DNA of 64,000 nucleotides from NCBI GenBank assembly GCA_937902925.1, contig CALFNN010000055.1:1-64000 (forward strand). The letters are read 5' to 3'. Below the pieces are notes generated by a model, which was given only the letters and a program-made list of their open reading frames with translations, did not search any database and was not told the origin of the DNA. The stretch's first letter is position 1; every line of letters starts with the position of its first letter. The stretch comes from an uncultured Opitutaceae bacterium (lineage in GTDB: Bacteria; Verrucomicrobiota; Verrucomicrobiia; Opitutales; Opitutaceae). Of the stretch, positions 16,117-36,408 are shown one piece after another. A program made the translations under genes and the position numbers.

Positions 16117-17376
16117 TCACCCGCCAGTCGGACGACGCACGATCGTTGGGACACCGGCTCCGAAACTCTGGAGTGCGCGCAACCAAATGCCGCCGGTCTG
16201 CCGATAAGCGTCCGCACCGGGCGCGCCGAGGAGTTTGGTGAGCGCGGCATTCGTTTCGTTGACGAGTGCTTGCGTGGCGGTGCGCGCAGCCGTCGGATCG
16301 GCGGCGGCCTGCATGATTGCCTGCGCCCGCTGCTGGGTGGACTGCTGGAGGGCGTAGGTGGCCGCCGCGTTGTCCGCCGGCAGGTTGAAATGATTCACGA
16401 TCTCCACCGCCGCACGGTAGCCGATGTCCTGGCCTCGTTGGAATTCGGCAAAACGTGCGTCGCCGAGGATCGCGCGATATTGTTCGTTGAGCGCGCTCTG
16501 GTCGGCCGCGCGTTGCGCGGGGCTCACGGGAGTTCCGATGGCTCCGGCGCCAGTCTTTGCGTCCGCGACGCTGCGAACGTCATACATGGCCCGGAATTCC
16601 GCCTCGGTCGGCTGGAACGCCGTCATTTTCCGGCGGAGGGCCAGGGCGGACGGTGAGAGATTCAGGTCGTAGAGTTCCAGTTCCTCGGGCGTAAGGATTT
16701 TGGCGAGGTCCGCGCGTTTCTCCCGCTCCAGCAGGGCGAGGCTTTCAGGATTGTTGCCCCCCGAAGTCGCGGCGTTGCGGGCAATGGCCGCGTAGTCGTT
16801 GTCGAGGTCGGCGACGCGTTCGATCTTGTCTTCCGGCAGGAAGCCGAGCCGCCGATGCGCCAGGGTCAATTGCGGGAGCGGGGGAATCGCGCCGCTGAAA
16901 ACGTCCTTGGTCTCGGGCAGATTTTTTGCGTCGAGGTCGTCGAGGGCCTTCTCCCACGCGAGATTCTCGGCTCTCGATTCCGTGCGCCAGAAGGGGCGGT
17001 CGATGGCCGCTCGCAGCAGAGCGTAGCGCTTCTCCTTCGTGGTATCGCCGAGCTCCCAGATGACCATATCGCGAATGAATTTTTCCGGAAACCCGTCATG
17101 GCGAAGTGCGGCCACCAGCGCCTTAGGATCGCCGCTCTTCAACGCGGCCGCGAGCGGTGCGTCCAGCACGGGCGGGATTGAAGTCGTGGCGCCGGCTGCG
17201 CGATCCGGGGTGGAGGCGGCGCCAGCCGCTTGGCCGGTTTTCGTCGCCACGCCGGCTTCAGATGCCCGGTGGGCCGGAAGGGAATCGGCCGCGGGAAACG
17301 TGCGTTGCCAGTAGAGGTAACCGAGCGCCGCGTTGGCGACGAGCGATACGCAGGCAAGGATGGTCGGGGCTTTCAT
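16117..17376 (-). CDS. single-pass membrane protein, partner of the membrane-tethered sigma factor upstream
   Basis: A 419-residue protein with one N-terminal transmembrane helix (about residues 3-18, TILACVSLVANAALGY) and a large, mostly helical outer domain. That domain resembles the C-terminal half of the sigma fusion encoded just upstream: both have a KRADLAKILTPEELELYD-type segment (KDLRQILTPEEFDQYD in the sigma), a PSEEEFRALF / PTEAEFRAMY segment, a LGD-RFA segment, and end with WLRALQ / WLRSLE. The gap to the sigma stop is 31 bases, so they form one transcript. I recognise no named domain. It probably contacts or modulates the sigma ectodomain (inference). Confidence 0.7.
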   Translation of the reverse strand: MKAPTILACVSLVANAALGYLYWQRTFPAADSLPAHRASEAGVATKTGQAAGAASTPDRAAGATTSIPPVLDAPLAAALKSGDPKALVAALRHDGFPEKFIRDMVIWELGDTTKEKRYALLRAAIDRPFWRTESRAENLAWEKALDDLDAKNLPETKDVFSGAIPPLPQLTLAHRRLGFLPEDKIERVADLDNDYAAIARNAATSGGNNPESLALLEREKRADLAKILTPEELELYDLNLSPSALALRRKMTAFQPTEAEFRAMYDVRSVADAKTGAGAIGTPVSPAQRAADQSALNEQYRAILGDARFAEFQRGQDIGYRAAVEIVNHFNLPADNAAATYALQQSTQQRAQAIMQAAADPTAARTATQALVNETNAALTKLLGAPGADAYRQTGGIWLRALQSFGAGVPTIVRRPTGG

Positions 17377-17407
17377 GTGGTTTTGGAAATGGGGTTGGTG
17401 TTGCGCG

Positions 17408-19363
17408 TCAGAACCGCGGTGGCGATGGACGCTCAAGGCTTCGCAGCCAGGCGCCGGCGGATCGCTTGTAGCCATCGAGACCCGCGGGCGTGAGCAAGGG
17501 GGTGAGTTGTTCGTTTGCGGTTTGCGCGAGCTGCCGAAGCTGGACGGCCTGCTGCTCCGGCGTCTGATTCGGCGTGGCGTGTATCGCCGCCTCGCGAGCG
17601 AGCGTGTCGCGCTGGATTTGGTAGACGGCCATGGCGTTTTCCGTGGGCAAATTGAGTTGTTGTGCGATCATATACGCCTCCTGGTAGCCGCGGTCCGAGG
17701 CGATCTCGTAGACGGCGAACCGCGTGTCACCAAGGGCTGACTTGATCTGGGCATTCAGGGTTTGTTGCGCCTGCTGCACCTCCGCTGGCGGCAGGGTGGT
17801 CGATCCGATGCGAAACTTGTCGTCGAAGGCGGATTTCAGGGTGAACAGCGCGCGAAACTCCTCCTCGCTGGGATTAAACTCCGGGAGCTGCCGGATGGCC
17901 ACGGCGACCGGAGAAGTGCGGAAATCATACTGATCGAATTCCTCCGGGGTGAGGATTTGGCGCAAGTCCTTCTCCCGTTCCTTATCGAGCAGCGCCAACC
18001 GTTCGACATCCCACGGCATGCGCATCGTCGACTGCGATAAGAGCTGCTGCCGCATCTGGCTGTAGTCGGCGTCCAACGCCTCAATGCGGTCCTGTTTTTC
18101 GACCGATAAAGGACCGTAAGCGCGACTGAGCGTCAGGCTGTGATACTCGCCTTCCTCGGGAAAGAGGTCCCGGAGAATTTTAGCCCGGGCGAGCTGACTT
18201 TCGCCAAATGCCGCGACTAGTGTGGCCGAGGGTGACGTGGACTCGGTCGTTTTCCAATACGGCGGTGGGGGCGAGGCCTTGATTGCCGCGACCCGCTTCA
18301 GGTTGTCGTGATTGCGCAGCAGGGCGACCACCGCACCGCGGGCGGCGGCCCGAGAAAACCCGGCGGCGAGCAGGTTGGCGGCGAAAGTTGCCGGGTCGTC
18401 GGAGAGGAGCCGCTCGAACGTCGTCCCACCCGATTTGAATTTTGGCGCGACCCCCGCCAGCCCGGATCCATCTGCCGCGGAGCGGGCGGGAGTCCCCGCG
18501 ACTTGGCCTCCGTTCAGGCTGGAGCCCATTGCCGTGGGGCCGTCGGAGCCCCGCCGTTCAAGCCGAACGCCGGGAGGCTGCCGGTTCGCCAGGCCGGCGA
18601 TGAACAGCGCGTTGGCGGCAAGCGACACGACGATGAGTGCGGCGAGGGACATGGATTTTACAGTGCTCATGAGATTCAGAAGGGTGAGGGTTGCGAACGT
18701 GCCGCCGGCCGTCACGCCCGCGGTGACGGCGGCGCTCGTGACGCCTACGGCGAGGCCCGTGGGCGCGGCGGTGACGGCCTGTTCGGTCAGGATCGCGGCG
18801 AAGGCTGCGCTGCTGGAGCGGATGCCGCGGCAGGCGAGGAGGCCGTGGAGTTTGTCGAGGGCGCGCTCGACGCGCATGCGAGCGGCGTTTTCCGAAAGGC
18901 CGAGTTTGGCGCCCACCTCCGCGAACGGGCGGCGCTCAAAAAACCGGAACACGATGGCGTCGCGATCGGTGCGGGCGAGTTCATGCATGGCGTCGTCCAG
19001 CACGGGCCGGATGTGTTTCCAGTCGGCCGGGGCCGCGGTTTCCGTGGTCATGTCATGCATGGTTTGCGCCTCCTGTTCCCGCTCTCGCCGGCGGACTTCC
19101 GAGCGGACGACCTTGCAGGCGATATTATGGGCGGTCGTGTAGAGCCAGCCCGCCAGAACCCGCCGGTCGGCCGGAGGGGGAGGCTGGGCCGCCAGCTTGA
19201 TGAACACCGCCTGGGTGACGTCTTTCGCCAGATGCGTGTCGCCATTGAGTTTTCGCAACGCGGCCGAGTAGACGAGGTCGACATAGCGCTTCACCAATTC
19301 CGCGAACGCCTCGTCCGAGCGGTCCTCGGCGTAGCGCCGCAGCAGTTCCAGGTCATCAGACAT
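17408..19363 (-). CDS. membrane-tethered ECF sigma factor, long ectodomain (paralog A)
   Basis: A 651-residue fusion. Residues 1-180 form an ECF sigma factor: region 2 (ELVKRYVDLVYSAALRKL, DVTQAVF) and region 4 (ARTDRDAIVFRFFERRPFAE, LSENAARMRVERALDKL). An Ala-rich linker follows (about 181-230), then one transmembrane helix (about 238-258) introduced by LMSTVK, then a roughly 390-residue helical domain predicted to be periplasmic. The ATG at 19363 aligns exactly with the starts of four paralogs in the window (M-x-DD/ED-x-x-LL-R-RY). It is divergent from paralog B. A conserved two-part element lies 10 bases before the start. The ectodomain is longer than in the other paralogs and belongs to a separate subtype. 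Confidence 0.85.
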   Translation of the reverse strand: MSDDLELLRRYAEDRSDEAFAELVKRYVDLVYSAALRKLNGDTHLAKDVTQAVFIKLAAQPPPPADRRVLAGWLYTTAHNIACKVVRSEVRRREREQEAQTMHDMTTETAAPADWKHIRPVLDDAMHELARTDRDAIVFRFFERRPFAEVGAKLGLSENAARMRVERALDKLHGLLACRGIRSSSAAFAAILTEQAVTAAPTGLAVGVTSAAVTAGVTAGGTFATLTLLNLMSTVKSMSLAALIVVSLAANALFIAGLANRQPPGVRLERRGSDGPTAMGSSLNGGQVAGTPARSAADGSGLAGVAPKFKSGGTTFERLLSDDPATFAANLLAAGFSRAAARGAVVALLRNHDNLKRVAAIKASPPPPYWKTTESTSPSATLVAAFGESQLARAKILRDLFPEEGEYHSLTLSRAYGPLSVEKQDRIEALDADYSQMRQQLLSQSTMRMPWDVERLALLDKEREKDLRQILTPEEFDQYDFRTSPVAVAIRQLPEFNPSEEEFRALFTLKSAFDDKFRIGSTTLPPAEVQQAQQTLNAQIKSALGDTRFAVYEIASDRGYQEAYMIAQQLNLPTENAMAVYQIQRDTLAREAAIHATPNQTPEQQAVQLRQLAQTANEQLTPLLTPAGLDGYKRSAGAWLRSLERPSPPRF

Positions 19364-19373
19364 CGGGGTGGGT

Positions 19374-19409
19374 TTGAGATAGACCCCGCCGGATGCGGAA
19401 TCACACAAA
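19374..19409 (-). promoter_or_regulatory. sigma-fusion promoter element, copy A
   Basis: On the minus strand TTTGTGTGATTC is followed after 16 bases by TATCTCAA, ending 10 bases before the ATG at 19363. It is the most divergent of five copies but keeps the exact spacing. It is probably an ECF-type -35/-10 pair. Confidence 0.5.
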
Positions 19410-19503
19410 AAAGGGACCGCGATTGGCAGCGGCGGCAATTCACCCGCCTGCCATCGTGCGTGGATAGCGAAAGATGGGATGGCGGGTAACGGCTCCGGTT
19501 TTT

Positions 19504-19539
19504 TTTGTTCGGTTTGGAAATCGGCGGGGGTTGTGGATT
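19504..19539 (+). promoter_or_regulatory. sigma-fusion promoter element, copy B
   Basis: TTTGTTCGGTTT, a 16-base spacer, then TGTGGATT, 17 bases before the ATG at 19557. The first block is identical in copies B, C, D and E. Confidence 0.6.
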
Positions 19540-19556
19540 GATTGGAAACGACCGCC

Positions 19557-21194
19557 ATGCCCGACGATGCCCAACTGCTCCGCCGTTACGCCGAGGAGAA
19601 ATCCGAGGCGGCATTCGCGGAGTTGGTGCGGCGGCATCTCGATCTCGTCCACTCGGCGGCCTTGCGGCTGGTGGGCGGCGATGCGCACCGGGCGCAGGAT
19701 GTAACCCAGATTGTTTTCCACGTGCTGGCCCGCAAGGCGCCCAAGCTCATCCGTCATCCAGTGCTCGCCGGCTGGCTCTACACCGCCACGCACCACGCGG
19801 CGACGAAGGTCGTGCGCGCCGAGTGGCGCCGCCATGTCCGCGAACAGGGGGCCCATGCCATGAACGAACTGCTCGCCGCCGCCGCCCCCGCCACCGACTG
19901 GGACCATGTGCGGCCCGTGCTCGACACCGCCATGCGCGAGTTGAACGACCGCGACCGCGAAGCGGTGCTGCTGCGTTTTTTTGAGCGCCGGACGTTCGCC
20001 GACATCGGCGGGGCGCTGGGCCTGACCGAGGACGCCGCGCGGATGCGCGTCGAGCGCGCCCTCGACAAACTGCATGCGCTGTTGTCCCGCCGCGGCGTCA
20101 CGTCGACCGCCGCCGCCCTGAGTGCCGTGCTTTCGACCGAGGCGGTGTCCGCCGCTCCCGCCGGCATGATGGCGGTGGTGTGCAACGCGGCAATGGTGCA
20201 GACGGCGGTCACCGGTGGCGGCGTGACGGCGGGTCTGCTGACTTTTATGAGCACGACAAAATTCGGCGCGATCGTCGCGGTGGCCTTCGCGATTCTGGCG
20301 GCGGGCACCGCCACGCGCGAAGCGCTGGCCAGTCGCGAGGCGAGAGCCTCGCTGGAGGCGGCCCAAGCCAACTATGCGGCGCAGAACGCGCGATTGCGCG
20401 GCTTGGAGCAGCAGGTGCAGGTGGCTGAGCAGTCGCGGGCGCAACTGGAGCAGACGGTGGCTGAAGCCCGGACGGCCCAGGCCGCCGAGGTGAAACGCGC
20501 CGCGGAGAGCGTGCGGGTGACGGCGCAGGGGGCCAAGGGCTACGTGCCGGGCGCCGCCGATCTTGCCCGGGGCGCGGCGTTCCTTGCGGAGCATCCCGAC
20601 GTGAAGCAGGCGTTGCTCGATCGCTCGCGCGCGCGGGTCGACTCGCGGTTTCGACCGCTCTACCGGGAATTGAATCTCACGCCCGCGCAGATCGCACAAT
20701 TCGAGACGCTGTTGATCGAGGGCGAAGGCGTCAACATGACCGCGGCGGACGGCAGCCCGCTGATCCTCCGGCCGGGCACCGGGATGACACGCGACGAAAT
20801 GGAGCGTGGGGTGCACGAGCTGCTGGGCGACGCCGGTTACCAGCAATACCAGGAGGCAAACCGCCTCGGCAACTCGCGTGGCTTCACGTTGCAGGTGGCG
20901 GGTGCCCTGTATTTCACGGACACGCCGCTGGACGTGCAACAGGCCGACCAGTTGACCCGGCTCGTCGACGGCGCTCGCAGCACCAGTCGCCAGCAACGCG
21001 GCAGCGGCGGCGACTACTGGACCACCCTGCTCGCCCAGGCCGGGGGATTTCTTTCCGCGCCCCAGCTCGAGGTCCTGGCCGGGTTTCAGCAGCAGGAGCA
21101 ATATCAACGCGAGCTCACGCAGGCGCTCCAGAACTCCTCGAAGAACTGGTCGCTCCCCGGCTGGGGAGCGGACCCGAAAAAACCCGTCAAATGA
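19557..21194 (+). CDS. membrane-tethered ECF sigma factor (paralog B)
   Basis: A 545-residue fusion. The ECF domain spans residues 1-180 (region 2 with HLDLVHSAALRLVGGDAH; region 4 with DRDREAVLLRFFERRTFADI and LTEDAARMRVERALDKL). RRGVTSTAAAL opens the Ala-rich linker. A transmembrane helix at about 236-254 (after FMSTTK) is followed by a Gln/Glu/Ala-rich coiled coil (255-320) and a helical outer domain: FLAEHPDVKQALLDR, LTPAQIAQFETLL, LLGDAGYQQYQ, LYFTDTPLDVQQADQL. Sigma in the cytoplasm with the C-terminus outside is the expected topology. Its stop overlaps the next gene by ATGA. No separate anti-sigma gene is present. Confidence 0.88.
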   Translation: MPDDAQLLRRYAEEKSEAAFAELVRRHLDLVHSAALRLVGGDAHRAQDVTQIVFHVLARKAPKLIRHPVLAGWLYTATHHAATKVVRAEWRRHVREQGAHAMNELLAAAAPATDWDHVRPVLDTAMRELNDRDREAVLLRFFERRTFADIGGALGLTEDAARMRVERALDKLHALLSRRGVTSTAAALSAVLSTEAVSAAPAGMMAVVCNAAMVQTAVTGGGVTAGLLTFMSTTKFGAIVAVAFAILAAGTATREALASREARASLEAAQANYAAQNARLRGLEQQVQVAEQSRAQLEQTVAEARTAQAAEVKRAAESVRVTAQGAKGYVPGAADLARGAAFLAEHPDVKQALLDRSRARVDSRFRPLYRELNLTPAQIAQFETLLIEGEGVNMTAADGSPLILRPGTGMTRDEMERGVHELLGDAGYQQYQEANRLGNSRGFTLQVAGALYFTDTPLDVQQADQLTRLVDGARSTSRQQRGSGGDYWTTLLAQAGGFLSAPQLEVLAGFQQQEQYQRELTQALQNSSKNWSLPGWGADPKKPVK

Positions 21195-22150
21195 CCATGC
21201 ACCCGCGAACCACCATCATCGTTGTCGCCACCGTCGTCGTCGCCGGGGCCCTCGGAGTCGTCTGGACCGCGAGCCAGGCGCGGCGCGACACGGAATCGTC
21301 GGTCGTCGAGCTCGCGCGAAAAAACGACGCGGTGATCCGCGAGGTTCAAAGCCTGCAGTCACGCCTCGCCAGCATCGAAAGCGACCGGGCGACGTTGCAG
21401 GCGAAACTCACGGAGCGGCCAAAAGTCCCGGCCGCGGCGTCCACCTCCGGCGGCCAGGCCCCGGTGGCGGCAGGCCGGCCGAATCCGATGGAGGTGATCA
21501 TGCAGGACCCGAAGTTGCAGAATTCGTTCTTCGCCGCGCAGCGGGCGACGCTTGCGACGCGCTATGGTCCGCTCTTCCGCCGGCTCGGGCTGAACCCGGC
21601 GCAGATCGGGCAGTTCGAGGACATCATGATCAAGCGGGAGGAAACCGAGATGGACCTGATGGCCGCGGCGCAAGCGCAACACCTGCCGCCTGACAGCCCC
21701 GAGCTCGCGACCCTGCGAAAGCAATCCGAGGACGAGACGACCGCGGCCGCAGCCGCCTTGCTCGGCCCCGCGGACTACGCGCAGTGGCAGGGCTACGAGC
21801 GGACGGCGGGCGTCCGCGGCGTCGTGCAGAATTTCGCCGGCGCCGCCGTGCTGGAGGCGATGCCGCTCACGGCGCAGCAAGCCGACCAGCTCACGCAGAT
21901 TCTGGCCGAGACCAGCGCCCGCTACGGGAACGGCGGCAACGCCGACTACAACGATATCGACTGGACGACGGCCGACCGGCGGCTGGCGGGTGTGCTCTCC
22001 GAGGCGCAGTTGAAACTCTTTCAGCAGATCGAGCCGCTGGGCGGAGGGCCCTCGCGATTCGGGGCGCGGCTGGGGATCGCGTTCGGCCAGGCGATGAAGG
22101 CGGACGGCGCCGGGTCCGCCGCTCCCGGCGGGAAACAACCGGGCGGCTGA
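21191..22150 (+). CDS. single-pass membrane partner of sigma paralog B
   Basis: A 319-residue protein translationally coupled to the sigma fusion (ATGA overlap). An N-terminal transmembrane helix (about residues 8-26) is followed by a short coiled coil (NDAVIREVQSLQSRLASIES) and a helical outer domain. Signature segments are RYGPLFRRLGLNPAQIGQFE, ALLGPADYAQWQGYERT, MPLTAQQADQLTQILAET, GNGGNADYNDIDW and LFQQIEPLGGG. The FRRLGL-PAQI-QFE segment matches YRELNLTPAQIAQFE in the ectodomain of its sigma partner, so the two outer domains are homologous. No enzymatic motif is visible. A second ATG lies two codons in. The 3' end carries a strong terminator. Confidence 0.75.
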   Translation: MTMHPRTTIIVVATVVVAGALGVVWTASQARRDTESSVVELARKNDAVIREVQSLQSRLASIESDRATLQAKLTERPKVPAAASTSGGQAPVAAGRPNPMEVIMQDPKLQNSFFAAQRATLATRYGPLFRRLGLNPAQIGQFEDIMIKREETEMDLMAAAQAQHLPPDSPELATLRKQSEDETTAAAAALLGPADYAQWQGYERTAGVRGVVQNFAGAAVLEAMPLTAQQADQLTQILAETSARYGNGGNADYNDIDWTTADRRLAGVLSEAQLKLFQQIEPLGGGPSRFGARLGIAFGQAMKADGAGSAAPGGKQPGG

Positions 22151-22166
22151 GCGGCACTTTTTTTTT
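22118..22166 (+). terminator. intrinsic terminator of the paralog B pair
   Basis: GCCGCTC pairs with GAGCGGC, with an inner CCGG/CCGG pairing, followed two bases later by nine T residues (22158-22166). The stem overlaps the stop codon at 22150. It ends the sigma B / partner transcript. Confidence 0.85.
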
Positions 22167-22421
22167 GCTGCAGGCGCGTTCGGTTTTCACCCCGGCGGGT
22201 GTTAAAGGATGTGAACAGTGAGGATGGAGGCGCCATCGATTCGGTTTGAGCCTTGAGGCCCGCTGGCGGCGTGACGGTTCAGCATAGGTTCTCCGGGGTC
22301 ACGCACGCCGGCGGGTTTCGGGGCGCGGTCAGAGGCGTCGGGTCGCTTCGCAGGGAGCCGGGGCCGGCGACCCGGCTACAACATGCGTGCGGTGGTTCCG
22401 ACAAAGCGTCTGATGCGATTC
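22167..22421. other. non-coding stretch between terminator and next sigma gene
   Basis: The gap between the two genes is 315 bases. Apart from the terminator at its left end and promoter element C at its right end, I see only a region of uneven composition with a short direct echo of TTCGGTTT (near 22189 and 22230). No open frame has good coding character and there is no RNA gene that I recognise. Confidence 0.5.
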
Positions 22422-22457
22422 TTTGTTCGGTTTGAGTTCCGGCGCCGACTATGGTGT
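22422..22457 (+). promoter_or_regulatory. sigma-fusion promoter element, copy C
   Basis: TTTGTTCGGTTT, a 16-base spacer, then TATGGTGT, 8 bases before the ATG at 22466. If the second block is a -10 element, the transcript is nearly leaderless. Confidence 0.6.
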
Positions 22458-22465
22458 GAAACGCC

Positions 22466-24013
22466 ATGGTCGAAGATGCCAAACTGCTCCGCCGCTATGC
22501 CACGGAGAAATCCGAGGAGGCATTTGCCGCGTTGGTGCAGCGGCACCTCGATCTTGTCTATTCCGCGGCGCTGCGGCGGCTCGGTGGCGACGCCCATGCG
22601 GCGGCGGATGTGGCGCAGCAGGTTTTCACGGCGCTCGCGCGGCAGGCGCCGGCACTGGCGCGGGGGGTCGTGCTGCCCGGCTGGCTCTACGCCACGACGC
22701 GCAACGTGGCCGTCGATTTCATCCGCACCGAGCAGCGCCGGCGGGCGCGCGAACAGGAGGCCCAAACCATGCAAGAACTCATCTCGCCGCCGGCACCGGC
22801 GATCGCTTGGGAGCAACTGCGCCCGGTGCTCGATGCGGCGATGGACGAACTCGGCGGCCGTGATCGCGAGGCGGTGCTGCTGCGGTTTTTCTCGCGGCGG
22901 CCATTTGCAGAGATCGGAAGTGCCCTGAGGGTGAGCGAAGATGCGGCGCGAATGCGGGTGGAGCGGGCACTTGCCAAACTGCATGCGCTGCTGACGCGGC
23001 GCGGGGTGACGTCGACGAGCGCGGCGCTGGCGGCGGCGTTGACGGAGCAGGCCGCGATCGCGGCGCCTGCGGGGCTGGCTGCGAGCGTGGCCGGCGAGGC
23101 GGTAATATCGGTGAGTGTCGCTGCCGGATCGGCGGCTGCCTCGGGGTCAAGCGTAGGAGCTTTGGCCGGATTCATTCATTTTATGAGCGCTTCGAAACTG
23201 TCGATCGGCATTGTTGGGCTGGTATTGATTGTCACGTTGGGCGGCGCGTTGCACGAGATTCGAGCTGGTCAGTTGATCGAAAGTGCAGTCGCGGCGGCGA
23301 AGCTCGAAAACGAAAAACTCGCCGCCAGGCTGCGCACGCGGAGCCAGCAAGGCGCGACCGCGACCGCCGCAATGACAACGGTTCGCAGCGCGGCGTTGCG
23401 CGGGCCGCTGCCGCAATCCGTCGTCGCGCGGAATCAAAGGGAAACAGAGACAAATGCCTATCTGGCGAGGCATCCCGAACTCCGCGATGCCCTCCGCCGT
23501 GAACTTCGAGCGACGGTCGCGGGCAGATATGGGTCCTTCTTTCGGGCACATCAGCTTTCTCCGATCCAGATCGAGCGTTTCCTTGATCTGGCAGGGCCCA
23601 TGTTTGGGATGGGCTATCGCTTTGTGGGAACGAATGGCGCGTCGCTTCAATATGGCCCGCCGAACAGCGAGCGCGCCGCCGCGCGAAAAGAATTGCAGGC
23701 CATGCTGGGTGAGGACGGGTTTCGCGATTTGACCACCTTGTTCGAAGCGGGATTGCAGGTGATCAAGATTCCGACCGAGCTGGCTGGCGCGCTCTACTAC
23801 ACGCCGACGCCGTTGACTGCCGAGCAGGCGGACCGCTTGCAACGGATTTTGCGCGACCGGCAGGTGCGTCCGGATCCAACTTCGCCGATGGGACTCGATT
23901 GGAATGCCATCGTCAGCGATGCGGCGGAAATCTTGACCGAGCCACAGATGATGATGCTGAAGCAGCTCCGGACGCAGGAAGAGACCTACCAAGCCCTCTA
24001 TACGACGTGGTGA
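22466..24013 (+). CDS. membrane-tethered ECF sigma factor (paralog C)
   Basis: A 515-residue fusion built like paralog B. The ECF domain is residues 1-180 (HLDLVYSAALRRLGGDAH; GRDREAVLLRFFSRRPFAEI; VSEDAARMRVERALAKL), the linker opens with RRGVTSTSAAL, and the transmembrane helix is about residues 244-262 after FMSASK. The outer domain keeps YLARHPELRDALRREL, FRAHQLSPIQIERFLDL, MLGEDGFRDL and LYYTPTPLTAEQADRLQRIL. The coiled-coil part is shorter and less charged than in B. The stop overlaps a GTG start of the partner gene (GTGA). Confidence 0.88.
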   Translation: MVEDAKLLRRYATEKSEEAFAALVQRHLDLVYSAALRRLGGDAHAAADVAQQVFTALARQAPALARGVVLPGWLYATTRNVAVDFIRTEQRRRAREQEAQTMQELISPPAPAIAWEQLRPVLDAAMDELGGRDREAVLLRFFSRRPFAEIGSALRVSEDAARMRVERALAKLHALLTRRGVTSTSAALAAALTEQAAIAAPAGLAASVAGEAVISVSVAAGSAAASGSSVGALAGFIHFMSASKLSIGIVGLVLIVTLGGALHEIRAGQLIESAVAAAKLENEKLAARLRTRSQQGATATAAMTTVRSAALRGPLPQSVVARNQRETETNAYLARHPELRDALRRELRATVAGRYGSFFRAHQLSPIQIERFLDLAGPMFGMGYRFVGTNGASLQYGPPNSERAAARKELQAMLGEDGFRDLTTLFEAGLQVIKIPTELAGALYYTPTPLTAEQADRLQRILRDRQVRPDPTSPMGLDWNAIVSDAAEILTEPQMMMLKQLRTQEETYQALYTTW

Positions 24014-25086: not shown

Positions 25087-26073
25087 ATGATCAAGAACGG
25101 CCTCATCCTCCTGCTCACGCTCGTGGCGATTGGCGCCACGGTGTTCGCGTGGCGGCAGCAGCAGGAACTCGCCGTGCTGCGCGCGGCGGCGATGGACACG
25201 ACGGAACGCGCCGACTTCCAAAAGCGGATGTGGGATTCGGAAAAACGCGCGCGATTGCTCCAGACGCAGCTTGACGCCATTCGCAGCCACGCCGCCGAGT
25301 CGGGCGATCTCGCGGTGACCGTGCCCGCCGGCGCCGCACCCGCCGGCAATCCGCAAAACCGGATGATCAGCGATGCGGTCAACGGCTGGCTCAATGTGAT
25401 GAACGACCCGGAGGCGCAGCGGCTGATGGCGCAGCAGCAGCGCGCGCAGATCAGCAGCCGCTACGCCGGGCTGTTTCGCGCGCTCGGCCTGCCGCCGGAC
25501 AAGCTCGCCCAGTTCAAGGAACTGCTCCTCGAGAAACAGACCGTGCGCAACGACGTGTTGCTGGCGGCGACGCAGCAGGGGATCAACCCGATGGCGAACC
25601 CGCAGGAATTCCGGCGGCTCGAAAATTCGATGCAGGATGAGATCGACGCGAAGATCAAAACCACGCTCGGGCCCGACGGGTTTTCCGATTTCCAAACCTA
25701 CCAGCAGACGCAGGGACGGCGCGGCGTCGTTGACCAACTGCAGCAATCGTTGAGCTACACGGCGTCGCCGCTTTCCGCCGCGCAGTCGGACCAGTTGGTC
25801 GAGATCCTCGGCCGCACGGGTCCGGCGGGCACGGCCACCGCCGGGAGTCCGAACAACAACACGGTGACGGATGCGACGATCGCGGCGGCGCAGGGCGTGT
25901 TGTCGCCGCCGCAGGTTCAGGCGTTGCAGGAAATCCAGCAGCAGCAGCAGGCGGGCGCGGAGCTGCAGAAGATGATGCGGCAGGGGCAGGGCGGAGGGCC
26001 GATGGGCGGACTGCCGGGCGCGCTGAACGGCGCGGGTGGAATGCTGCCTGGTCGCGGCGTGCCGGGGGGATGA
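25087..26073 (+). CDS. orphan paralog of the sigma-partner membrane proteins
   Basis: A 328-residue protein with an N-terminal transmembrane helix (about residues 3-21), a short coiled coil and the same helical outer domain as the sigma partners: MNDPEAQRLMAQQQRAQ, RYAGLFRALGLPPDKLAQFK, LGPDGFSDFQTYQQTQGRRG, ASPLSAAQSDQLVEILG and VLSPPQVQALQEIQ. The C-terminus is Gln-rich, then a Gly/Pro/Met tail. It has no sigma gene of its own; it lies 138 bases after the paralog C pair on the same strand and may be co-expressed with it or serve several sigma fusions. The function is unknown. Confidence 0.72.
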   Translation: MIKNGLILLLTLVAIGATVFAWRQQQELAVLRAAAMDTTERADFQKRMWDSEKRARLLQTQLDAIRSHAAESGDLAVTVPAGAAPAGNPQNRMISDAVNGWLNVMNDPEAQRLMAQQQRAQISSRYAGLFRALGLPPDKLAQFKELLLEKQTVRNDVLLAATQQGINPMANPQEFRRLENSMQDEIDAKIKTTLGPDGFSDFQTYQQTQGRRGVVDQLQQSLSYTASPLSAAQSDQLVEILGRTGPAGTATAGSPNNNTVTDATIAAAQGVLSPPQVQALQEIQQQQQAGAELQKMMRQGQGGGPMGGLPGALNGAGGMLPGRGVPGG

Positions 26074-29027: not shown

Positions 29028-29122
29028 GGCGGGTGGGGGTTGCGCCAAGGCTGGGCGTGCCACCCCGCAACACAAGACGTGCGGAGCCTGCCAGTCAGGC
29101 CGGGGCCGGTCGCAAACCGAAA

Positions 29123-29160
29123 CCGGACGGCGCGACGACCGGTGCCGTCGCGCCGTCCGG
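29123..29160 (-). terminator. intrinsic terminator of the TonB receptor gene
   Basis: A perfect 15-base stem (29123-29137 with 29146-29160) has an 8-base loop ACCGGTGC. Reading leftward it begins just after the receptor stop at 29165 and is followed by GGTTTCGGTTT, a weak U-rich tail. Confidence 0.75.
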
Positions 29161-29164
29161 CGGA

Positions 29165-31552
29165 TCAGAATTTATAGGTGAACGACGAGCGCAGGGAGCG
29201 CGGATCGCCGACGTAGAGCGAATTGCGGTTCAAGGCGGCCTGGATGTAATCCTGGTTCATCAGGTTCACGATCGTGAGGCGTGCGGTCCACGTGGGCGTG
29301 CGATAGCTGAAGCCCAGGTTGTAGATGGTGCGGCCCGCCACCTTGAAGCTGGGTTGCTGGGGCACGAATTTCACGGCGCCGGGGAGCGGCTTCGTCGTGG
29401 TGTAGGCCGGGTTGACCTGGTCGCCGGGCGCCTCGCCCTTGTAATCGATCCCGAAGTTCACGCCGAAACCGGAGAACATGCCCTCGGTGAAGCGGTAGTC
29501 GACATAGCCGGCGCCGCTCTGGTCGGCGACGGCGCGATACTTCACGTCGAACGGCTGGCGCAGCCGAAAGTCGGTGTAGTTGCCGATGAGCGTGAGGTTC
29601 TTGCTGAGCGCGTAGCTGAGCTCGACCTCCCAGCCCTTCGACGTGAGGTCGAGGTAGAGCGGGTTGGGCAGCGCCGCGGCGCCGGCGAAATCGCCCTGTG
29701 CGACCAGCACGTAGTATTGGCTGTTGGGCGCGGCGTAGTTCGCCTGCGTGATGTCGAAATAGGAGATCGACGAGGTGAACGTGTTGTCGAGGAAGTTGAG
29801 CTTGATGCCGTATTCCTTCTGGTTGCCCTCGGCGACCTTGGCGGGGATGATCGTGCCGGCGCTGAGCGAGCCGGGCATGGTGCCGCCGGTGGTGTTGTAG
29901 CCGTAGAAGAGGGAGACCTCCTTGATCGGCTTGATCACGACCCCGAACGTCTCGGCGTTGCTGGTGCGCGAGTAGGTCAGCGGGGCGCCGGCGACGAGGC
30001 CGACGCCGGAATTGTCGGTGCGGTCGAGATCGCCGTTGAAATGGGAGTAGCCGCCGGAGAGCTGGAGGCGGCCGCTCCACAGGCTGACGTTTTCGTAGGC
30101 GAAGAACTGGAGGTCGGTCTGCTCGCCGACCTTGTCGGTGCCGCCGTTGGCCGCGGTCGGCTGCTGGAAGGCATAGCCGCCGTAGGTGATCGAGCCGAGC
30201 GACGCCGCGCTGACGGGCAGGCGTGCGGCCGCCGGGTAGGACTTGAAGTGGACCTTCGACTTGTTGCCGGCGAAGCCGGCGATCGTGGTGGACTTGAAGA
30301 GGTCGTTGTCGAACCGCATCGCCCAGTCATTCTTGATGTGCGACTCGGTGTATTCGAGGTAAACGCGGCCCTGGTTGCGGGTGTAAACCCACGTGGACGG
30401 CGTCGCGATCGGCGTGGTGACCGAAGTCGCGACGGCGGTGGCGCCGGAGTTATCGACGGTCCAGACGACGCCCGGTTCGTAGAGGCCGGTGTTGGGATTG
30501 CGCGTGCCGCCGCCGCCGCCGGGCAGGCCGGCGATCGAGGCGTTGGTGCCGCCGATGTCCGAGCGAATGACATGGTCCGCCATCACCTGGAGCCGGGAGG
30601 TGAGATGGCTGCCCCACGTCGAGAGGAGTTCGCCGCTGGCGCGCTCGGTGGCGCGGTGCCGGGTGTCGGTGTCGTCGCCGAACGACCAGTTGCGCGGCAG
30701 GCCCTCGGCGACGCGAGCGTAGTCGTTGCTGCCGACGCGGGGATCGAGCGGGATGCCGCTGTCGTTGGTCTCGCGGTTTTGCACGACCTCGCCCTTGAGC
30801 GTCAGTTTCTGCCCGGGGGTGAGCTGGATCGAATACGACGGCGCGAAGATATAGCCGTTGCGATACTTCGCCATCTGGTAGCCCTCGCTGCGCCAGTAGC
30901 CGGCGATGACGCGGGCGGCTTGCTTGCCATCGGCGGTGAGGACGCGATTGACGTCGAAACTCGCGCCCGTGCCGAAGTAGGTGGCGAGTTCGAGGGTCGT
31001 GCTCGCCTGGTTCTTGCCGATGGGCGATTTCGTGATCGGGTTCATCTGCCCGCCGGGGCTGCCGCCGGGCACGAGGATCGCATTCGGACCCTTGATGATC
31101 TCGATGCGCTCGATGTTATACGGCGCGAGCGTCATGCTGTAGCCATCCTGGCCGGAGATTTCCGTGCCGTCGATGAACTCGTGCGACACCTGGTAGCCGC
31201 GGATCTGGTAGCGGTCGCTTCCCATGGTGAGCGACGACTCGGTGATGGGCGTCACGTATTTCGCGACGTCGAGCATCTTCTGGCCCATGGAGTCCTGGAT
31301 GAGGTCGCTCGTCACGACCGAGATCGTCTGCGGGATGTCCTGGATCGGCATCGCCACGCGCGACGCCGAGAGCGCCTGGCTCGACTGGTAGGGGTTGACG
31401 GCGTTTTCGGTGATCGTGAACTGCGGGAGCGCAATCGTCTCGTCTTTGTCTTTGGCCGGGGCGGTGGCCTGGCCGAATGCCGCGGGGCCCGCGCCCAGCA
31501 GGAGGGCGAGGGACACGGCACGAAGGATAGCGGGGTTATGGTAGTTTTGCAT
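29165..31552 (-). CDS. TonB-dependent outer-membrane receptor
   Basis: A 795-residue receptor with a signal peptide (residues 1-28, ending AAFGQA), a plug domain (about 50-195, with DIPQTISVVTSDLIQD, RYQIRGYQVSHEFIDG, IERIEIIKGPNAILVPGG) and a C-terminal 22-strand barrel ending in the typical aromatic residue (SFTYKF). It resembles FecA/FhuA-type siderophore receptors, though in this group such receptors also import oligosaccharides. A TonB-box-like stretch ETIALPQFTITE precedes the plug. There is no N-terminal signalling domain, so it does not drive an ECF sigma by the FecI route. The substrate is unknown. Confidence 0.92.
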   Translation of the reverse strand: MQNYHNPAILRAVSLALLLGAGPAAFGQATAPAKDKDETIALPQFTITENAVNPYQSSQALSASRVAMPIQDIPQTISVVTSDLIQDSMGQKMLDVAKYVTPITESSLTMGSDRYQIRGYQVSHEFIDGTEISGQDGYSMTLAPYNIERIEIIKGPNAILVPGGSPGGQMNPITKSPIGKNQASTTLELATYFGTGASFDVNRVLTADGKQAARVIAGYWRSEGYQMAKYRNGYIFAPSYSIQLTPGQKLTLKGEVVQNRETNDSGIPLDPRVGSNDYARVAEGLPRNWSFGDDTDTRHRATERASGELLSTWGSHLTSRLQVMADHVIRSDIGGTNASIAGLPGGGGGTRNPNTGLYEPGVVWTVDNSGATAVATSVTTPIATPSTWVYTRNQGRVYLEYTESHIKNDWAMRFDNDLFKSTTIAGFAGNKSKVHFKSYPAAARLPVSAASLGSITYGGYAFQQPTAANGGTDKVGEQTDLQFFAYENVSLWSGRLQLSGGYSHFNGDLDRTDNSGVGLVAGAPLTYSRTSNAETFGVVIKPIKEVSLFYGYNTTGGTMPGSLSAGTIIPAKVAEGNQKEYGIKLNFLDNTFTSSISYFDITQANYAAPNSQYYVLVAQGDFAGAAALPNPLYLDLTSKGWEVELSYALSKNLTLIGNYTDFRLRQPFDVKYRAVADQSGAGYVDYRFTEGMFSGFGVNFGIDYKGEAPGDQVNPAYTTTKPLPGAVKFVPQQPSFKVAGRTIYNLGFSYRTPTWTARLTIVNLMNQDYIQAALNRNSLYVGDPRSLRSSFTYKF

Positions 31553-31833
31553 GGTTCGAGGAGCGGAGGAATTCAGCGCGGCGGGACGCGGTCCCGGTGG
31601 GAGTTGGTCAACGCCGCGCGTGCGGTGGCAGGGACAGGGGAAACATGAGTGCGGTGCGATCCGAAGGTGCAGGAATCGCCCGGGGTGTTGGTTCTAGAAA
31701 CGCGCGCGCCCATGGGGCGTAAAGCGGCGAAACCGCTCGGGTTGTTGCACAATCCGCTCACGCGAGTTTGGCGGGGCCGGTGGGGCCGCCGTTCTGCGAT
31801 TGCGGGAGGTGCGCGCCCGCGACACCGTAAATC
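31553..31833. other. divergent upstream region, no gene
   Basis: About 280 bases between the divergent TonB receptor and DUF983 genes. It must hold both promoters, but I can pick neither the TGTCC/TATTA nor the TTTGTTCGGTTT element in it. A weak small hairpin (AGCGG/CCGCT, near 31722) is the only structure seen. Confidence 0.4.
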
Positions 31834-32235
31834 ATGAACGTGACCCGCCGCCAGATTGTCACCCGTGGCCTCGCCGGGCATTGTCCCAATTGCGGCGGGC
31901 ATGCGCTGTTCCACGCCGGGGCGCGGTTCAAGATCAACGAGCGGTGTCCGGACTGCGGGATGAAGCTGGACCGCGGCGACGGATTCTTCCTCGGGCCTTT
32001 TGTGATCAATTACACGGTGACGGTCGCCGTCTTCATCGTTCCGGTCGTGCTGCTCGGGGTGCTGGGGGTGATCGCCAAACTCGCGGCGGTCGCCCTCATC
32101 GTCGCCGGCGCGATCGTCATTCCGATTCTCCTCTACCGCCGGTCATGGAGCTGGTGGCTGATGGCATATTTTTATTTCCTGCCGCAGAAGCTGCCGAAAA
32201 ACCATGACGAGCAGCACGAGGACGAAGAGGAGTAG
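31834..32235 (+). CDS. DUF983-family zinc-ribbon membrane protein
   Basis: A 133-residue protein with an N-terminal zinc ribbon made of CPNCG (residues 17-21) and CPDCG (residues 40-44), followed by two transmembrane helices (about 56-80 and 84-102) and an acidic His/Glu tail. This is the DUF983 layout; the family's role is not established. It ends 68 bases before sigma paralog D, whose promoter element begins 27 bases after this stop. Its expression is probably separate from the sigma. Confidence 0.85.
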   Translation: MNVTRRQIVTRGLAGHCPNCGGHALFHAGARFKINERCPDCGMKLDRGDGFFLGPFVINYTVTVAVFIVPVVLLGVLGVIAKLAAVALIVAGAIVIPILLYRRSWSWWLMAYFYFLPQKLPKNHDEQHEDEEE

Positions 32236-32262
32236 AACAACCGCGAGTTCGGGTCGAAAAAC

Positions 32263-32298
32263 TTTGTTCGGTTTTTGGGCCGGCGGTTGCCATAGAGC
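32263..32298 (+). promoter_or_regulatory. sigma-fusion promoter element, copy D
   Basis: TTTGTTCGGTTT, a 16-base spacer, then CATAGAGC, only 4 bases before the ATG at 32303. A transcript starting 6-8 bases after the second block would begin at or near the start codon. Confidence 0.6.
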
Positions 32299-32302
32299 AA
32301 TC

Positions 32303-33874
32303 ATGCCGGATGATGCCACGCTGCTTCGCCGCTACGCCACGGAACGCGCCGAGGACGCGTTTGCGGAGCTGGTGCGCCGGCACGTCGATGGCGTCTATTC
32401 CGCCGCGCTGCGGCGGGTCGGCGGCGATGCGCACCTAGCGGAGGATGTGACGCAGCAGGTTTTCGTGGCGCTCGCGCGAAAAGCGGCCGCGCTGGTCGGC
32501 CACCCGGTGTTGAGCGCGTGGCTTTATCGCACCACGCGCAACGAGGCGGCCAACTTGGTGCGCCACGAACGCCGCCGGAAACGGCGCGAACTGGAGGCTG
32601 GAACCATGGAAGAACTACTCGCGCCGACGAATACCCGTGCCGACTGGAGCCGGGTGGCGCCCGTGCTCGACGCGGCGATCGACGAATTGAACGAGCGCGA
32701 CCGCGAGGCGATCTTGCTGCGCTTTGTCGACCGCCTGGGCTTTTCGGAAATGGGCGCGGCCCTGCGACTGACCGAAGACGCCGCGCGGATACGAGTGAAG
32801 CGCTCGCTGGAGAAGCTACGTGTGCTGCTCACCCAGCGTGGCGTGACGTCGACGGGCACTGCACTTGGGCTGGCGTTGGCAAACCACGCGCTGGCGGCGG
32901 CTCCGTCGGGGCTCGCCGCCAGCGTGACCGGCTCCGTGGCGCTCTCGGCCAATGCCGCCACGTCACCGGTGGTCGCTTTTCTTCAACTCATGAGCGCTTC
33001 AAAAATTGCCCTAACTGTCGCCGGGACGCTGCTCGTTCTCGCGGTGGGAATTGCCACTCGAGAATCCTCGAACCGCCGTGCTGCCGAGGCTGCACTGAAT
33101 GCGGCCGATCAGAGTTATGTGGCGCAAATTGCGAAGCAGCGTGCGTTGGAGCAGCGCGCCCAGGCGTCGGAGCGGGATGCGGCTCAACTTCGGGAGACCA
33201 TCGACGAGACGCGCACGAAGGAGGCTGGCTCGATGGCGCGAACCGCGTTGGAGGCGCAGGCTCCCAAGGCGGCGCCAGCTTGGGATCCGGTTGCGGAGGG
33301 ACAGGCGTTTCTTGCGCGCCATCCAGAGGTGAAAAAGGCTCTCATCGAACGCGCCAAGGCCTCTGTGCGGTTCCGGTTCGGCCAGCTCTACGCGTCGCTC
33401 GGACTCACAACCGAGCAAATCGATCAGTTCGAAACCTTGATGAGCGGGGCCGCGGCGACCAGCGGGGCATTTGGGCCGAATGGCCAACAGTTGGCGCTCA
33501 AAGCGGGTCCGGACATTCCGGAAGAGGAGATTGTCACGCGCTTGCACGCACTTTTGGGCGAAGAAGGGTTCCAACAATTTCAGAAGTTTGGTCAGGTGGC
33601 CCCGGCACGCGACCTCACAGTGCAGGTTGCCAGCGACCTGAGTTTCACGGATTCGCCACTGACACCGCAACAGGCGGAACAGCTACAGCAAATATTGGCC
33701 GGCGGCCGCGCGGAGCGGCGCGGGTCCCAGACCAGCCGGTTCGATCGGAGCGCCGTTATCGCCAGAGCGAAGAGTGTTCTATCGGCGCCCCAACTTGTGG
33801 TGCTGGACGGTGCGTTGGCAAAAACCCAGCTCCAGCAGACGATCAATCATATGATCAATGCATCCGGCAAATAA
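32303..33874 (+). CDS. membrane-tethered ECF sigma factor (paralog D)
   Basis: A 523-residue fusion. The ECF domain is residues 1-180 (HVDGVYSAALRRVGGDAH; ERDREAILLRFVDRLGFSEM; LTEDAARIRVKRSLEKL), the linker starts with QRGVTSTGTAL, the transmembrane helix is about 235-251 after LMSASK, and a coiled coil runs to about 320 (EQRAQASERDAAQLRETIDE). The outer domain has FLARHPEVKKALIERAK, YASLGLTTEQIDQFETLM, LLGEEGFQQFQKFG and LSFTDSPLTPQQAEQLQQIL. It is closest to paralog B. Its end overlaps the partner gene by 17 bases. Confidence 0.88.
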   Translation: MPDDATLLRRYATERAEDAFAELVRRHVDGVYSAALRRVGGDAHLAEDVTQQVFVALARKAAALVGHPVLSAWLYRTTRNEAANLVRHERRRKRRELEAGTMEELLAPTNTRADWSRVAPVLDAAIDELNERDREAILLRFVDRLGFSEMGAALRLTEDAARIRVKRSLEKLRVLLTQRGVTSTGTALGLALANHALAAAPSGLAASVTGSVALSANAATSPVVAFLQLMSASKIALTVAGTLLVLAVGIATRESSNRRAAEAALNAADQSYVAQIAKQRALEQRAQASERDAAQLRETIDETRTKEAGSMARTALEAQAPKAAPAWDPVAEGQAFLARHPEVKKALIERAKASVRFRFGQLYASLGLTTEQIDQFETLMSGAAATSGAFGPNGQQLALKAGPDIPEEEIVTRLHALLGEEGFQQFQKFGQVAPARDLTVQVASDLSFTDSPLTPQQAEQLQQILAGGRAERRGSQTSRFDRSAVIARAKSVLSAPQLVVLDGALAKTQLQQTINHMINASGK

Positions 33875-34853
33875 CCGTGTGGGCCTGAGGGCGCTTATCG
33901 TTGTCGTCGTCACCGCGATTCTCGTGGTGGCCGCTGGAAGCGCGTGGCGCAACGTGCGGTTGGCACGCGCTGCAAACGCCGCACTCGTTGTCGTCGAGCG
34001 GAAGCGAGCCGCCGCAGGCGAGGCGGTCCGGGGCGTTGAAGTTCGATTCGCCGAGGCGGAAAAGAACCGGGTGAAGTTGCAGGCCGAATTCGACCGTCGG
34101 CAAAAGACGAAAGGCTCCATGACGGGAGCGGCTGCGTCGCGGCCGCACGATCCGGCCACGCTAATGGAGCAGTTGCGCGCAATGATCCAAAAGCAGCAGG
34201 AAGCGGAAAAGGATCCGAGGATCCAGTTACTGCAGCTTGCCGTCCGCCGGGCAAAAATGGCGGCGACCTTTGGCCTGCTGTTCCGGACGCTCGGGCTCAT
34301 GCCCGGGCAAATCGAGAAATTTGAAGACAATGCCACCAGACGAGAGGAGCAGCAGATGGATCTTTGGGCCGTCATGCATGAGCAGGGTTTGACGCTGCAA
34401 GACCCCGCGCTCGCCAAGCTCTTCTTGGAAATCGAGCCCGAGTATCAGGCGGCTCAAAAGGAGCTGCTGGGGGAAGCGGGCTATCGTAAATTTCAGGCTT
34501 ACGAGCGTGTGGCGTCCATGCGGGACACGGTGAGCCGCTTCGCAGGAGTGGCGACGGTGATGGGAATGCCCTTCACGTCGTCGCAGGCAGGGCAGCTCGC
34601 GCAAATTCTGGCGGGCGCGAGCAACAGCTACCGGAAAGGTGGGAAAGCCGATGCCTTTTCAGTCAATTGGTCGCTCGTTGACAAACAAGCGGAGGCGATT
34701 CTTTCCGATTCACAAATGACCCTGATCAAGACGATCGAGCCGGGAGGCGAGGGGGGCCGGTTTGAGAGCGAGTGGAACAAGCTCATGATTCAAGCACAGA
34801 ATGACGACAGGGCGAACGGGTCGGCATCCGCGGTGCCGGGCCCGGGCGGATAG
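33858..34853 (+). CDS. single-pass membrane partner of sigma paralog D
   Basis: A 331-residue protein whose start lies 17 bases inside the end of sigma D. An N-terminal transmembrane helix (about residues 10-28) leads into a coiled coil (about 40-85) and the shared outer domain: EKDPRIQLLQLAVRRAKMAA, FRTLGLMPGQIEKFEDN, LLGEAGYRKFQAYERV, MPFTSSQAGQLAQILAGAS, YRKGGKADAFSVNW and IKTIEPGGEGGRF. The order and spacing match the partner at 21191 best. The C-terminal tail is Gly/Pro/Ser-rich. No function beyond sigma partnership can be inferred. Confidence 0.75.
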   Translation: MHPANNRVGLRALIVVVVTAILVVAAGSAWRNVRLARAANAALVVVERKRAAAGEAVRGVEVRFAEAEKNRVKLQAEFDRRQKTKGSMTGAAASRPHDPATLMEQLRAMIQKQQEAEKDPRIQLLQLAVRRAKMAATFGLLFRTLGLMPGQIEKFEDNATRREEQQMDLWAVMHEQGLTLQDPALAKLFLEIEPEYQAAQKELLGEAGYRKFQAYERVASMRDTVSRFAGVATVMGMPFTSSQAGQLAQILAGASNSYRKGGKADAFSVNWSLVDKQAEAILSDSQMTLIKTIEPGGEGGRFESEWNKLMIQAQNDDRANGSASAVPGPGG

Positions 34854-34883
34854 CCGTTGCCGGGACGAGCGGGCCGACAATTC

Positions 34884-34919
34884 TTTGTTCGGTTTTCGCG
34901 GGGGTGGCCATTATGGGGT
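34884..34919 (+). promoter_or_regulatory. sigma-fusion promoter element, copy E
   Basis: TTTGTTCGGTTT, a 16-base spacer, then TATGGGGT, 10 bases before the ATG at 34930. Both blocks are close to the consensus. Confidence 0.6.
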
Positions 34920-34929
34920 AGAAAATACC

Positions 34930-36408
34930 ATGATGGACGATGCCGAGTTGCTCAGCCGCTATGCCGGGACGCATGCCGAGGAGGCGTTCGCGGAGCTCGT
35001 GCAGCGGCACGTCAATCTCGTCTACCGCGCGGCGTTGCGGCAGCTCGGCGGCGATGCGCACGGGGCGCAGGAGGTGGCGCAGGCGGTGTTCACGCTGCTC
35101 GCGCGCAAGGCGGGGTCGCTGACGGGGCACACGAGTCTCGCGGGGTGGCTTTACTCGACCACGCATTTCACCGTCCGCGACCTGCGGCGCGGCGAGCGGC
35201 GCCGGCTGGCGCGCGAACAGGAGGCCTTCACCATGCAGGAACTCGCCACGGATTCCGTTTCGGCCGCCGACTGGGAACGGCTGCGGCCGGTGCTCGACGA
35301 CGCGATGCAAGGCCTCGGCGACGCCGACCGGGAGGCGCTGCTGCTGCGGTTCTTCGAGGAGAAACCGTTTGCCGAGGTGGGCGAGAAGCTCGCGGTTTCG
35401 GAAGACGCCGCCCGGATGCGCGTCGAGCGGGCGCTCGACAAGTTGCATGGGTTGCTCGCGAAGCGCGGCGTGACGTCGACTGCCGCGGCGGTCGGGCTGA
35501 TGCTGGCCAACGAGGCGAGCGTCGCGGCACCGGCCGGGCTGGCGGCGGCGGTGACCGGTTCGGCCCTCGCGGGCGCGGCGACCGCCGCGGGCGGCGGAGC
35601 GATCGTGGCGGCGAAAGTTTTCACTTTTATGAGCACAACGAAAATCATGGCGGGAGTCGCCGGCGTCATCGCCGTGGCGGCGACGGCGGTCACGTGGCAG
35701 CAACGGCAGGCGAATGCGGAGCTGCGCACCGAAATCGGCGCACTGCGCGAACAAACGGCGGCCGTGACGACGCTCCGCGCGGAGAACCAGCGCCTGGTGG
35801 CGGCAAAGAACGCCGGTGACGACACGGCCCGGGCCGAGCACGAGGAACTCGTGCAACTGCGCGCGGCCCGGGACGCGTTTCGGAAGCGGCTGGCGCAGGG
35901 GGTGGCGAGCGGCCAGGCGGTGGCGCCGGCGACGGCTACGACCGCCGCGCCGGGCGACGGGTTGAAACCGGGCATGGTGTCGGTGGACGTGTTACAGGAC
36001 GTCGGTCGGGATACACCGCGGGCGGCGGCGCAGAGCATGATGGCGGCGGCGCAACGCGGCGAGGTCGACAAGGCGGCGAGCTGCCTGACCTTCGATCCGG
36101 CGGAGCGGGCGAAGCTGGAGGCGTTCATCGCGACGCTGCCCGAAAACCTGCGCGAAAAATATCGCTCGCCCGAGGTGATGATGGCGTCGGTGATTTCAGG
36201 CAGCCCGAAGCCGGTCTCGGGTGTGAAATTGCTCAGCGAAACGCGGCCCGACGCCGACACCGCGGTGCAGGAAGTGCAGGTGCAATACCAGAGCGGCGAG
36301 GTGCGGCAGGACGAAATCACCTTCCGGCGCGACACCGACGGTTGGAAACAGGTGGTCTCACCCGCGATGGTGGACCGCGTGGTCGCCTACTTCAAAGGGA
36401 AGCAGTAG
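34930..36408 (+). CDS. membrane-tethered ECF sigma factor with a different outer domain (paralog E)
   Basis: A 492-residue fusion. The ECF domain (1-181: HVNLVYRAALRQLGGDAH; DADREALLLRFFEEKPFAEV; VSEDAARMRVERALDKL), the linker (KRGVTSTAAAV) and the transmembrane helix (about 238-256 after FMSTTK) match the other paralogs, followed by a coiled coil (about 257-315). The C-terminal domain differs: TPRAAAQSMMAAAQRGEVDK and a beta-rich end (QVQYQSGEVRQDEITFRRD) suggest an NTF2/SnoaL-like or DUF4878-like fold. There is no partner gene after it. Starts at 34930 and 34933 (adjacent ATGs) are equally possible. Confidence 0.85.
   Translation: MMDDAELLSRYAGTHAEEAFAELVQRHVNLVYRAALRQLGGDAHGAQEVAQAVFTLLARKAGSLTGHTSLAGWLYSTTHFTVRDLRRGERRRLAREQEAFTMQELATDSVSAADWERLRPVLDDAMQGLGDADREALLLRFFEEKPFAEVGEKLAVSEDAARMRVERALDKLHGLLAKRGVTSTAAAVGLMLANEASVAAPAGLAAAVTGSALAGAATAAGGGAIVAAKVFTFMSTTKIMAGVAGVIAVAATAVTWQQRQANAELRTEIGALREQTAAVTTLRAENQRLVAAKNAGDDTARAEHEELVQLRAARDAFRKRLAQGVASGQAVAPATATTAAPGDGLKPGMVSVDVLQDVGRDTPRAAAQSMMAAAQRGEVDKAASCLTFDPAERAKLEAFIATLPENLREKYRSPEVMMASVISGSPKPVSGVKLLSETRPDADTAVQEVQVQYQSGEVRQDEITFRRDTDGWKQVVSPAMVDRVVAYFKGKQ

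Follow-up and report, generated by a model that had tools for sequence, protein, structure and literature searches.

Membrane-anchored ECF sigma factors with matched single-pass partners and a recognition-helix-linked promoter element in the Opitutaceae

Why would a bacterium carry, side by side, several ECF sigma factors that end in a membrane helix and an outer domain, most of them followed by a gene for a further membrane protein? The question is raised by a 64,000-nt stretch of DNA (hereafter the window) from a member of the Opitutaceae, a family of soil and water bacteria. Five such sigma-TM genes (S1–S5) lie in it. Each product contains Pfam Sigma70_r2 and r4 domains, an Ala-rich linker, the juxtamembrane motif [FL]MS[TA][TSV]K and one strong hydrophobic helix, followed by a C-terminal domain of 230–400 residues. 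Pfam and hydropathy analyses thus confirmed the architecture proposed in a preliminary description of the locus. Its statement that the sigma domain ends in RRG, CRG or QRG and that the linker opens with a VTST-like sequence holds in general; the exceptions are S5, which ends in KRG, and S1, whose linker opens with IRSS. The proteins have regions 2 and 4 without region 3, as is characteristic of ECF (sigma70 group 4) factors, with PF04542, PF04545 and PF08281 above cut-off and 56–79 bits for the sigma70-ECF model TIGR02937 (cut-off 42.9).

As the starts of several listed reading frames had been set too far upstream, corrected coordinates are given throughout. S1 (17408..19363, minus strand, 651 aa) carries an outer domain of type A, homologous to that of its single-pass partner P1 (16117..17376, minus strand), which was recognised by its hydrophobic helix, this homology and an AlphaFold model. 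The two genes are 31 bp apart. S2 (19557..21194), S3 (22466..24013) and S4 (32303..33874), all on the plus strand, carry type-B domains by homology, and their genes overlap those of single-pass type-B partners: P2 (21191..22150, plus strand) at an ATGA shared with the sigma stop, P3 (24007..24948, plus strand), which has a GTG start, by 7 bp, and P4 (33858..34853, plus strand) by 17 bp. The earlier observation that four of the sigma genes precede a gene for a single-pass membrane protein, three of them overlapping it, was borne out, and hydropathy gives P1–P4 one N-terminal hydrophobic helix each. S5 (34930..36408, plus strand) has no partner. Its outer domain is assigned to the DUF4878-like type C by clustering of the tail, the DUF4878 match itself (7e-4) lying below the curated cut-off.

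A second single-pass type-B protein, P3b (25087..26073, plus strand), is encoded 3′ of P3 and falls into a conserved standalone clade of the type-B tree, not into the partner clade. In the related sequence L112 a member of this clade is flanked by genes for DNA topoisomerase I and a class-II aldolase, and L113 and L115 show a similar arrangement around the standalone type-B gene; in the genome studied here a member sits instead behind S3–P3. Between the S3 and S4 operons the window also encodes a TonB-dependent receptor with a Plug domain (29165–31552, minus strand), adjoining an IlvD-type dehydratase gene.

Two ectodomain families therefore make up the window pairs, type A in S1 and P1 and type B in S2, S3, S4, P2, P3, P3b and P4, with the DUF4878-like domain of S5 as a third. 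By sequence comparison, the homology of the sigma and partner outer domains is beyond chance (phmmer 1e-47 for S1 and P1). No Pfam or NCBIfam model matched types A and B, no PDB relative was found by sequence, and a Foldseek search of the PDB with AlphaFold models of P2 and P1 gave no significant fold match. Both models are all-helical and confident (pLDDT 89.6 for P2 and 84.9 for P1). In the P2 model the membrane helix continues into one long helix that ends at residue 75; a juxtamembrane coiled coil would be expected to look like this. LTxxQ-like motifs had prompted us to consider type B as a Spy/CpxP/CnrX periplasmic sensor, and this candidate was rejected because no Pfam LTXXQ or metal-sensor, PDB-sequence or fold match was found. 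Profile comparison of A with B gave an hhalign probability of 76 over 80 columns and of 11 with other rows, so that the two are perhaps weakly homologous. The profiles of two further families, E and D, are related (probability 89); the remaining family profiles are mutually unrelated, A and B perhaps excepted.

In other genomes, long frames of type-A genes appeared to contain N-terminal sigma domains. These candidates were rejected, as their 5′ parts resemble non-coding read-through ahead of a plain MK-start membrane protein, and S1 is consequently the only sigma-A fusion seen. Type-A single-pass proteins are also encoded in tandem, by as many as four successive genes, where no sigma factor is present (C70:171077-176364 of the genome studied here (L039), L122, L137 and L126).

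How general is this arrangement? A profile of region 4, linker and membrane helix was used to search 61 genomes of the same Opitutae family, the tails of the unique proteins found were clustered into families, and the gene directly downstream was then examined. The search recovered 105 sigma-TM proteins in 28 of the 61 genomes, with the highest count, 25, in the genome studied here. Their tails represent about 20 kinds of outer domain: B (32), TonB-C (18), E (12), C (9), D (4), c4 (4), ExbD (2), SLBB (1), A (1) and others. Type B is present in 53 of the 61 genomes; outside the family, a phylum sample contained scattered genes only. Those relatives that bear a name are MAGs of Opitutae and other Verrucomicrobiota, and a scan of genome contigs returned records of this kind only.

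Several of the sigma-TM loci deserve mention in their own right. TonB-C, ExbD or SLBB tails are exemplified by L033:11009-12589, L145, L144:4402-5925, L041:4884-6689 and L035:9213-10505, in which components of the TonB/Tol and polysaccharide-export machinery appear to be joined to a sigma factor. In three genomes (L040:2944-4512, L218:3455-5086 and L224:692-2521), members of the c7 subfamily have downstream a conserved gene of flotillin-like appearance (KVGPNEV motif) and no matched partner. A sigma-B gene in L087 (4105-5924) is apparently split by a frameshift, with the sigma and B parts in different frames and the partner retained. Elsewhere in the genome studied here (C102:39000-78000), ten sigma-TM genes of several promoter classes form two clusters about 20 kb apart on a single contig.

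A recognised single-pass partner is encoded directly downstream of 55 of the 105 sigma-TM proteins, and of 21 of the 32 with type-B tails, so the placement of partner genes is not random with respect to the fusions. The partner shares the domain kind of its sigma in 38 cases (B-B 21/32, C-C 7/9, E-E 6/12, and one each of A-A, D-D, c4-c4 and c20-c20), which cover five or more kinds with no relation to one another (B/A, C, E/D, c4 and c20). Same-family neighbours thus number 38 of 56, against a maximum of 22 in 20,000 shuffles that ignore shared ancestry; the 56 comprise the 55 partners and one probable artefact. A 'TonB' neighbour at L033:15798 and a (c99,TonB) pair were excluded as partners, since they resemble split genes or artefacts of the reading frame. 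Across the census, partner starts cluster at a 4-bp ATGA overlap with the sigma stop.

The earlier proposal of a partner with a homologous ectodomain stands for these 38 cases and fails for others: a type-C single-pass partner follows 14 of the 18 TonB-C sigmas, both ExbD sigmas (together 16/20) and one c15 sigma. No recognised partner accompanies about half of the sigma-TM genes, which means that the architecture can do without one. Pairing is common, not obligatory, and the paired pattern is more general than it had first seemed from the window.

The topology of these proteins was assigned by hydropathy only. The sigma domain must lie in the cytoplasm. TonB-C, ExbD and SLBB domains act in the periplasm, and since they occupy the tail position of the same sigma-linker-TM chassis, the tail of the sigma-TM proteins is most likely periplasmic. 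The positive-inside rule is of no help, because positive charges follow the helix in both sigma and partner. We consider it very unlikely that the C-terminal domain is cytoplasmic, through a hydrophobic helix that does not span the membrane or an Ala-rich linker that spans it too. Some linker segments do reach Kyte-Doolittle values of 1.5–1.8; the second helix, however, is the stronger in most proteins and common to nearly all, and such a topology would place periplasm-acting domains in the cytoplasm.

If tail and partner are both periplasmic, have they evolved together? In a quick tree of 96 type-B domains with moderate support, most domains of paired sigmas and most partner domains form separate groups with mirrored subgroups. 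The mirror-tree correlation is r = 0.76–0.82 (permutation p 5e-5, ancestry not corrected). Fitch label changes number 4 for type B against a shuffled minimum of 11, and 3 for type C against a minimum of 4; for type E they are not fewer than in shuffled data. On the evidence of these trees, type-B sigma and partner domains co-evolve.

Additionally, one genome (L089) encodes a single 733-aa protein of the order sigma-TM-B-B. Its first B domain falls into the paired-sigma clade and its second among the partners, and the fusion implies that both lie on the same side of the membrane. This natural fusion argues for a physical association of sigma and partner domains. Together with the mirrored trees and the TonB-C, ExbD and SLBB domains in ectodomain position, it lends support to the earlier idea of a sensing pair, with both outer domains on one side of the membrane.

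The same data bear on the possibility that the partner is the first output gene of an autoregulated operon, a periplasmic envelope protein derived from the sigma ectodomain that never touches the sigma. Such domains do exist as standalone genes and tandem arrays without a sigma, and both genes would be driven by the upstream promoter. The mirrored trees, the sigma-B-B fusion and the agreement of domain kind in five or more unrelated families are nevertheless unexpected of an unrelated product, and we regard this explanation as unlikely.

What, then, would such a receptor control? Most sigma-TM genes are preceded by an element of the form TTTTGTNCGGTTT-N6-(C)GGCGGC-NNN-TA(T), with its TGT usually 37–47 nt before the ATG. 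In the window it precedes S2 (19505..19533), S3 (22423..22451, no mismatches), S4 (32264..32292) and S5 (34885..34913, no mismatches), all on the plus strand and with T as the variable −35 base. The S1 element (19380..19408, minus strand) reads TTGTGTGATT-N7-GGCGGGG-TCTA and belongs to the G class. An orphan promoter-like site with three mismatches (22176-22204), perhaps a relic, lies in the P2–S3 interval and is not immediately followed by a sigma gene.

Six sites with at most three mismatches occur in the window, against 0.25 expected. Across the 6-Mb genome the composite pattern occurs 16 times when up to two mismatches are allowed, and 15 of these sites immediately precede sigma-TM genes; exact −35 sites number 17, only two of which lie elsewhere than at sigma-TM genes. 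Recovery of these genes is expected, as the pattern was derived from them; what is informative is the scarcity of other sites and the match between protein residue and promoter base. A wider regulon was considered and rejected, since exact −35 sites away from sigma-TM genes are no more frequent than those of a reversed-pattern control.

The match concerns the region-4 recognition helix, S-E-x1-A-A-x2-x3-R, whose residues are tracked by the variable −35 base. T goes with Asp at x1 in 28 of 28 cases and G with Asn in 26 of 26 (Fisher p 5e-16, ancestry not corrected). Likewise, C goes with Lys at x3 in 10 of 11 cases and TGTCGGAT with Gln-Lys in 8 of 8. In the window, S2–S5 combine T with Asp and S1 combines G with Asn. 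The tree contains 12 residue changes and 12 base changes; well-supported branches hold only 3 of the 12 independent D/N switches, and these three residue-base pairs are all concordant. This match, read from sequence, is strong evidence for autoregulation of the sigma-TM genes, and the promoter code is the best support we have for functional sigmas that each activate their own operon. Element and helix covariation together indicate, at the computational level, an autoregulated ECF-type promoter.

Membrane-tethered (TM-fused) ECF sigmas are already known. Planctomycetes have the ECF01-Gob type, with a C-terminal membrane helix; it shares with the present proteins an ECF sigma domain, an Ala-rich linker, one membrane helix and a variable outer domain, and the group is not known to have a coupled partner with a matching domain. 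In the RseA/RseB/sigmaE and CnrYXH systems, paired single-pass or periplasmic proteins sense the envelope and control an ECF sigma. There a soluble sigma is held by a separate anti-sigma, whereas here the sigma itself is the membrane receptor. Full-text literature searches returned no description of matched downstream partners, this promoter code or this Opitutae group; their coverage of work on ECF classification and specificity is incomplete, which makes this weak evidence.

The actinobacterial groups ECF48, ECF52 and ECF53 (e.g. SCO4117) combine an ECF sigma with a C-terminal membrane helix and an extracytoplasmic region, and release by proteolysis has been proposed for them (PMC8999054). 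In these groups a zinc-finger anti-sigma-like domain separates the sigma part from the membrane helix; in contrast, Pfam scans of the five window sigmas and of further sigma-TM proteins detected no such domain. IutY of Pseudomonas putida (ECF243) unites sigma, membrane helix and periplasmic signalling part in one polypeptide (PMC8999054). IutY has a fused anti-sigma and a siderophore signal, whereas Pfam found no FecR-type anti-sigma domain in the Opitutae sigmas or partners scanned; some of the relatives carry TonB-C or ExbD.

It is a real, if tentative, possibility that the partner is an RseB-like negative regulator which covers the sigma ectodomain and guards it against site-1 cleavage until a ligand removes it. 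Close adjacency, separate co-evolving clades and co-expression would suit a dedicated inhibitor, and Prc and RseP activate IutY, a sigma fused to its anti-sigma, by cleaving it (PMC8999054). Against this, Pfam recognised no RseB, FecR or anti-sigma domain, and roughly half of the sigma-TM genes lack a recognised partner. Somewhat more doubtful is a sigma that remains tethered and, with no proteolysis, becomes active at the membrane through a change of conformation. Whatever the ectodomain, the linker and the [FL]MS..K motif are conserved; known TM-fused ECF sigmas, however, are freed by proteolysis or predicted to be (PMC8999054). By analogy with IutY and the proposals for ECF48/52/53, the sigma is probably released by proteolysis.

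We favour, with somewhat better than even confidence, the view that every locus forms a transmembrane signalling operon complete in itself, in which a sigma-receptor and its coupled partner perceive an envelope signal that leads to sigma release and positive autoregulation. In the product of the first gene, the Ala-rich linker would lead from a cytoplasmic ECF sigma domain into a single membrane helix, and this in turn into a coiled coil and a sensor domain in the periplasm. The single-pass product of the second, translationally coupled gene would hold its own periplasmic domain beside that of the sigma, in what is most likely a heteromer. In response to an envelope signal this assembly would change or come apart, and the sigma domain would turn active, most likely after cleavage of the membrane anchor of the sigma itself. 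Once free, it would bind a dedicated promoter of the ECF type immediately 5′ of the sigma gene, raising the expression of sigma and partner and possibly of other sigma-TM genes of the same −35 class. The data speak for the architecture and the coupling of the genes, for matched pairing and co-evolution, for sigma-promoter covariation and, in the natural fusion, for a same-side topology; the physical heteromer, the ligand, inhibition by tethering and proteolysis are inferred.

The chances seem to us evenly balanced that the loci represent a general receptor-sigma class. Many unrelated periplasmic domains would have been swapped into one sigma-linker-TM chassis and repeatedly stabilised as two-gene, matched heteromeric receptors, each with its own promoter through the −35/recognition-helix code, giving many parallel self-activating circuits per cell. 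TonB-C and ExbD are parts of the machinery that powers outer-membrane uptake, and domain swapping that includes them would make sensing inputs guessable. The −35 code would give directly testable predictions of sigma-promoter pairs, useful for orthogonal regulators. For these bacteria, the findings suggest a two-part receptor wired straight to the transcription switch that turns on its own operon: a layout without a separate anti-sigma, in which the transcription factor would itself be the transmembrane receptor, accompanied by a matched co-receptor.
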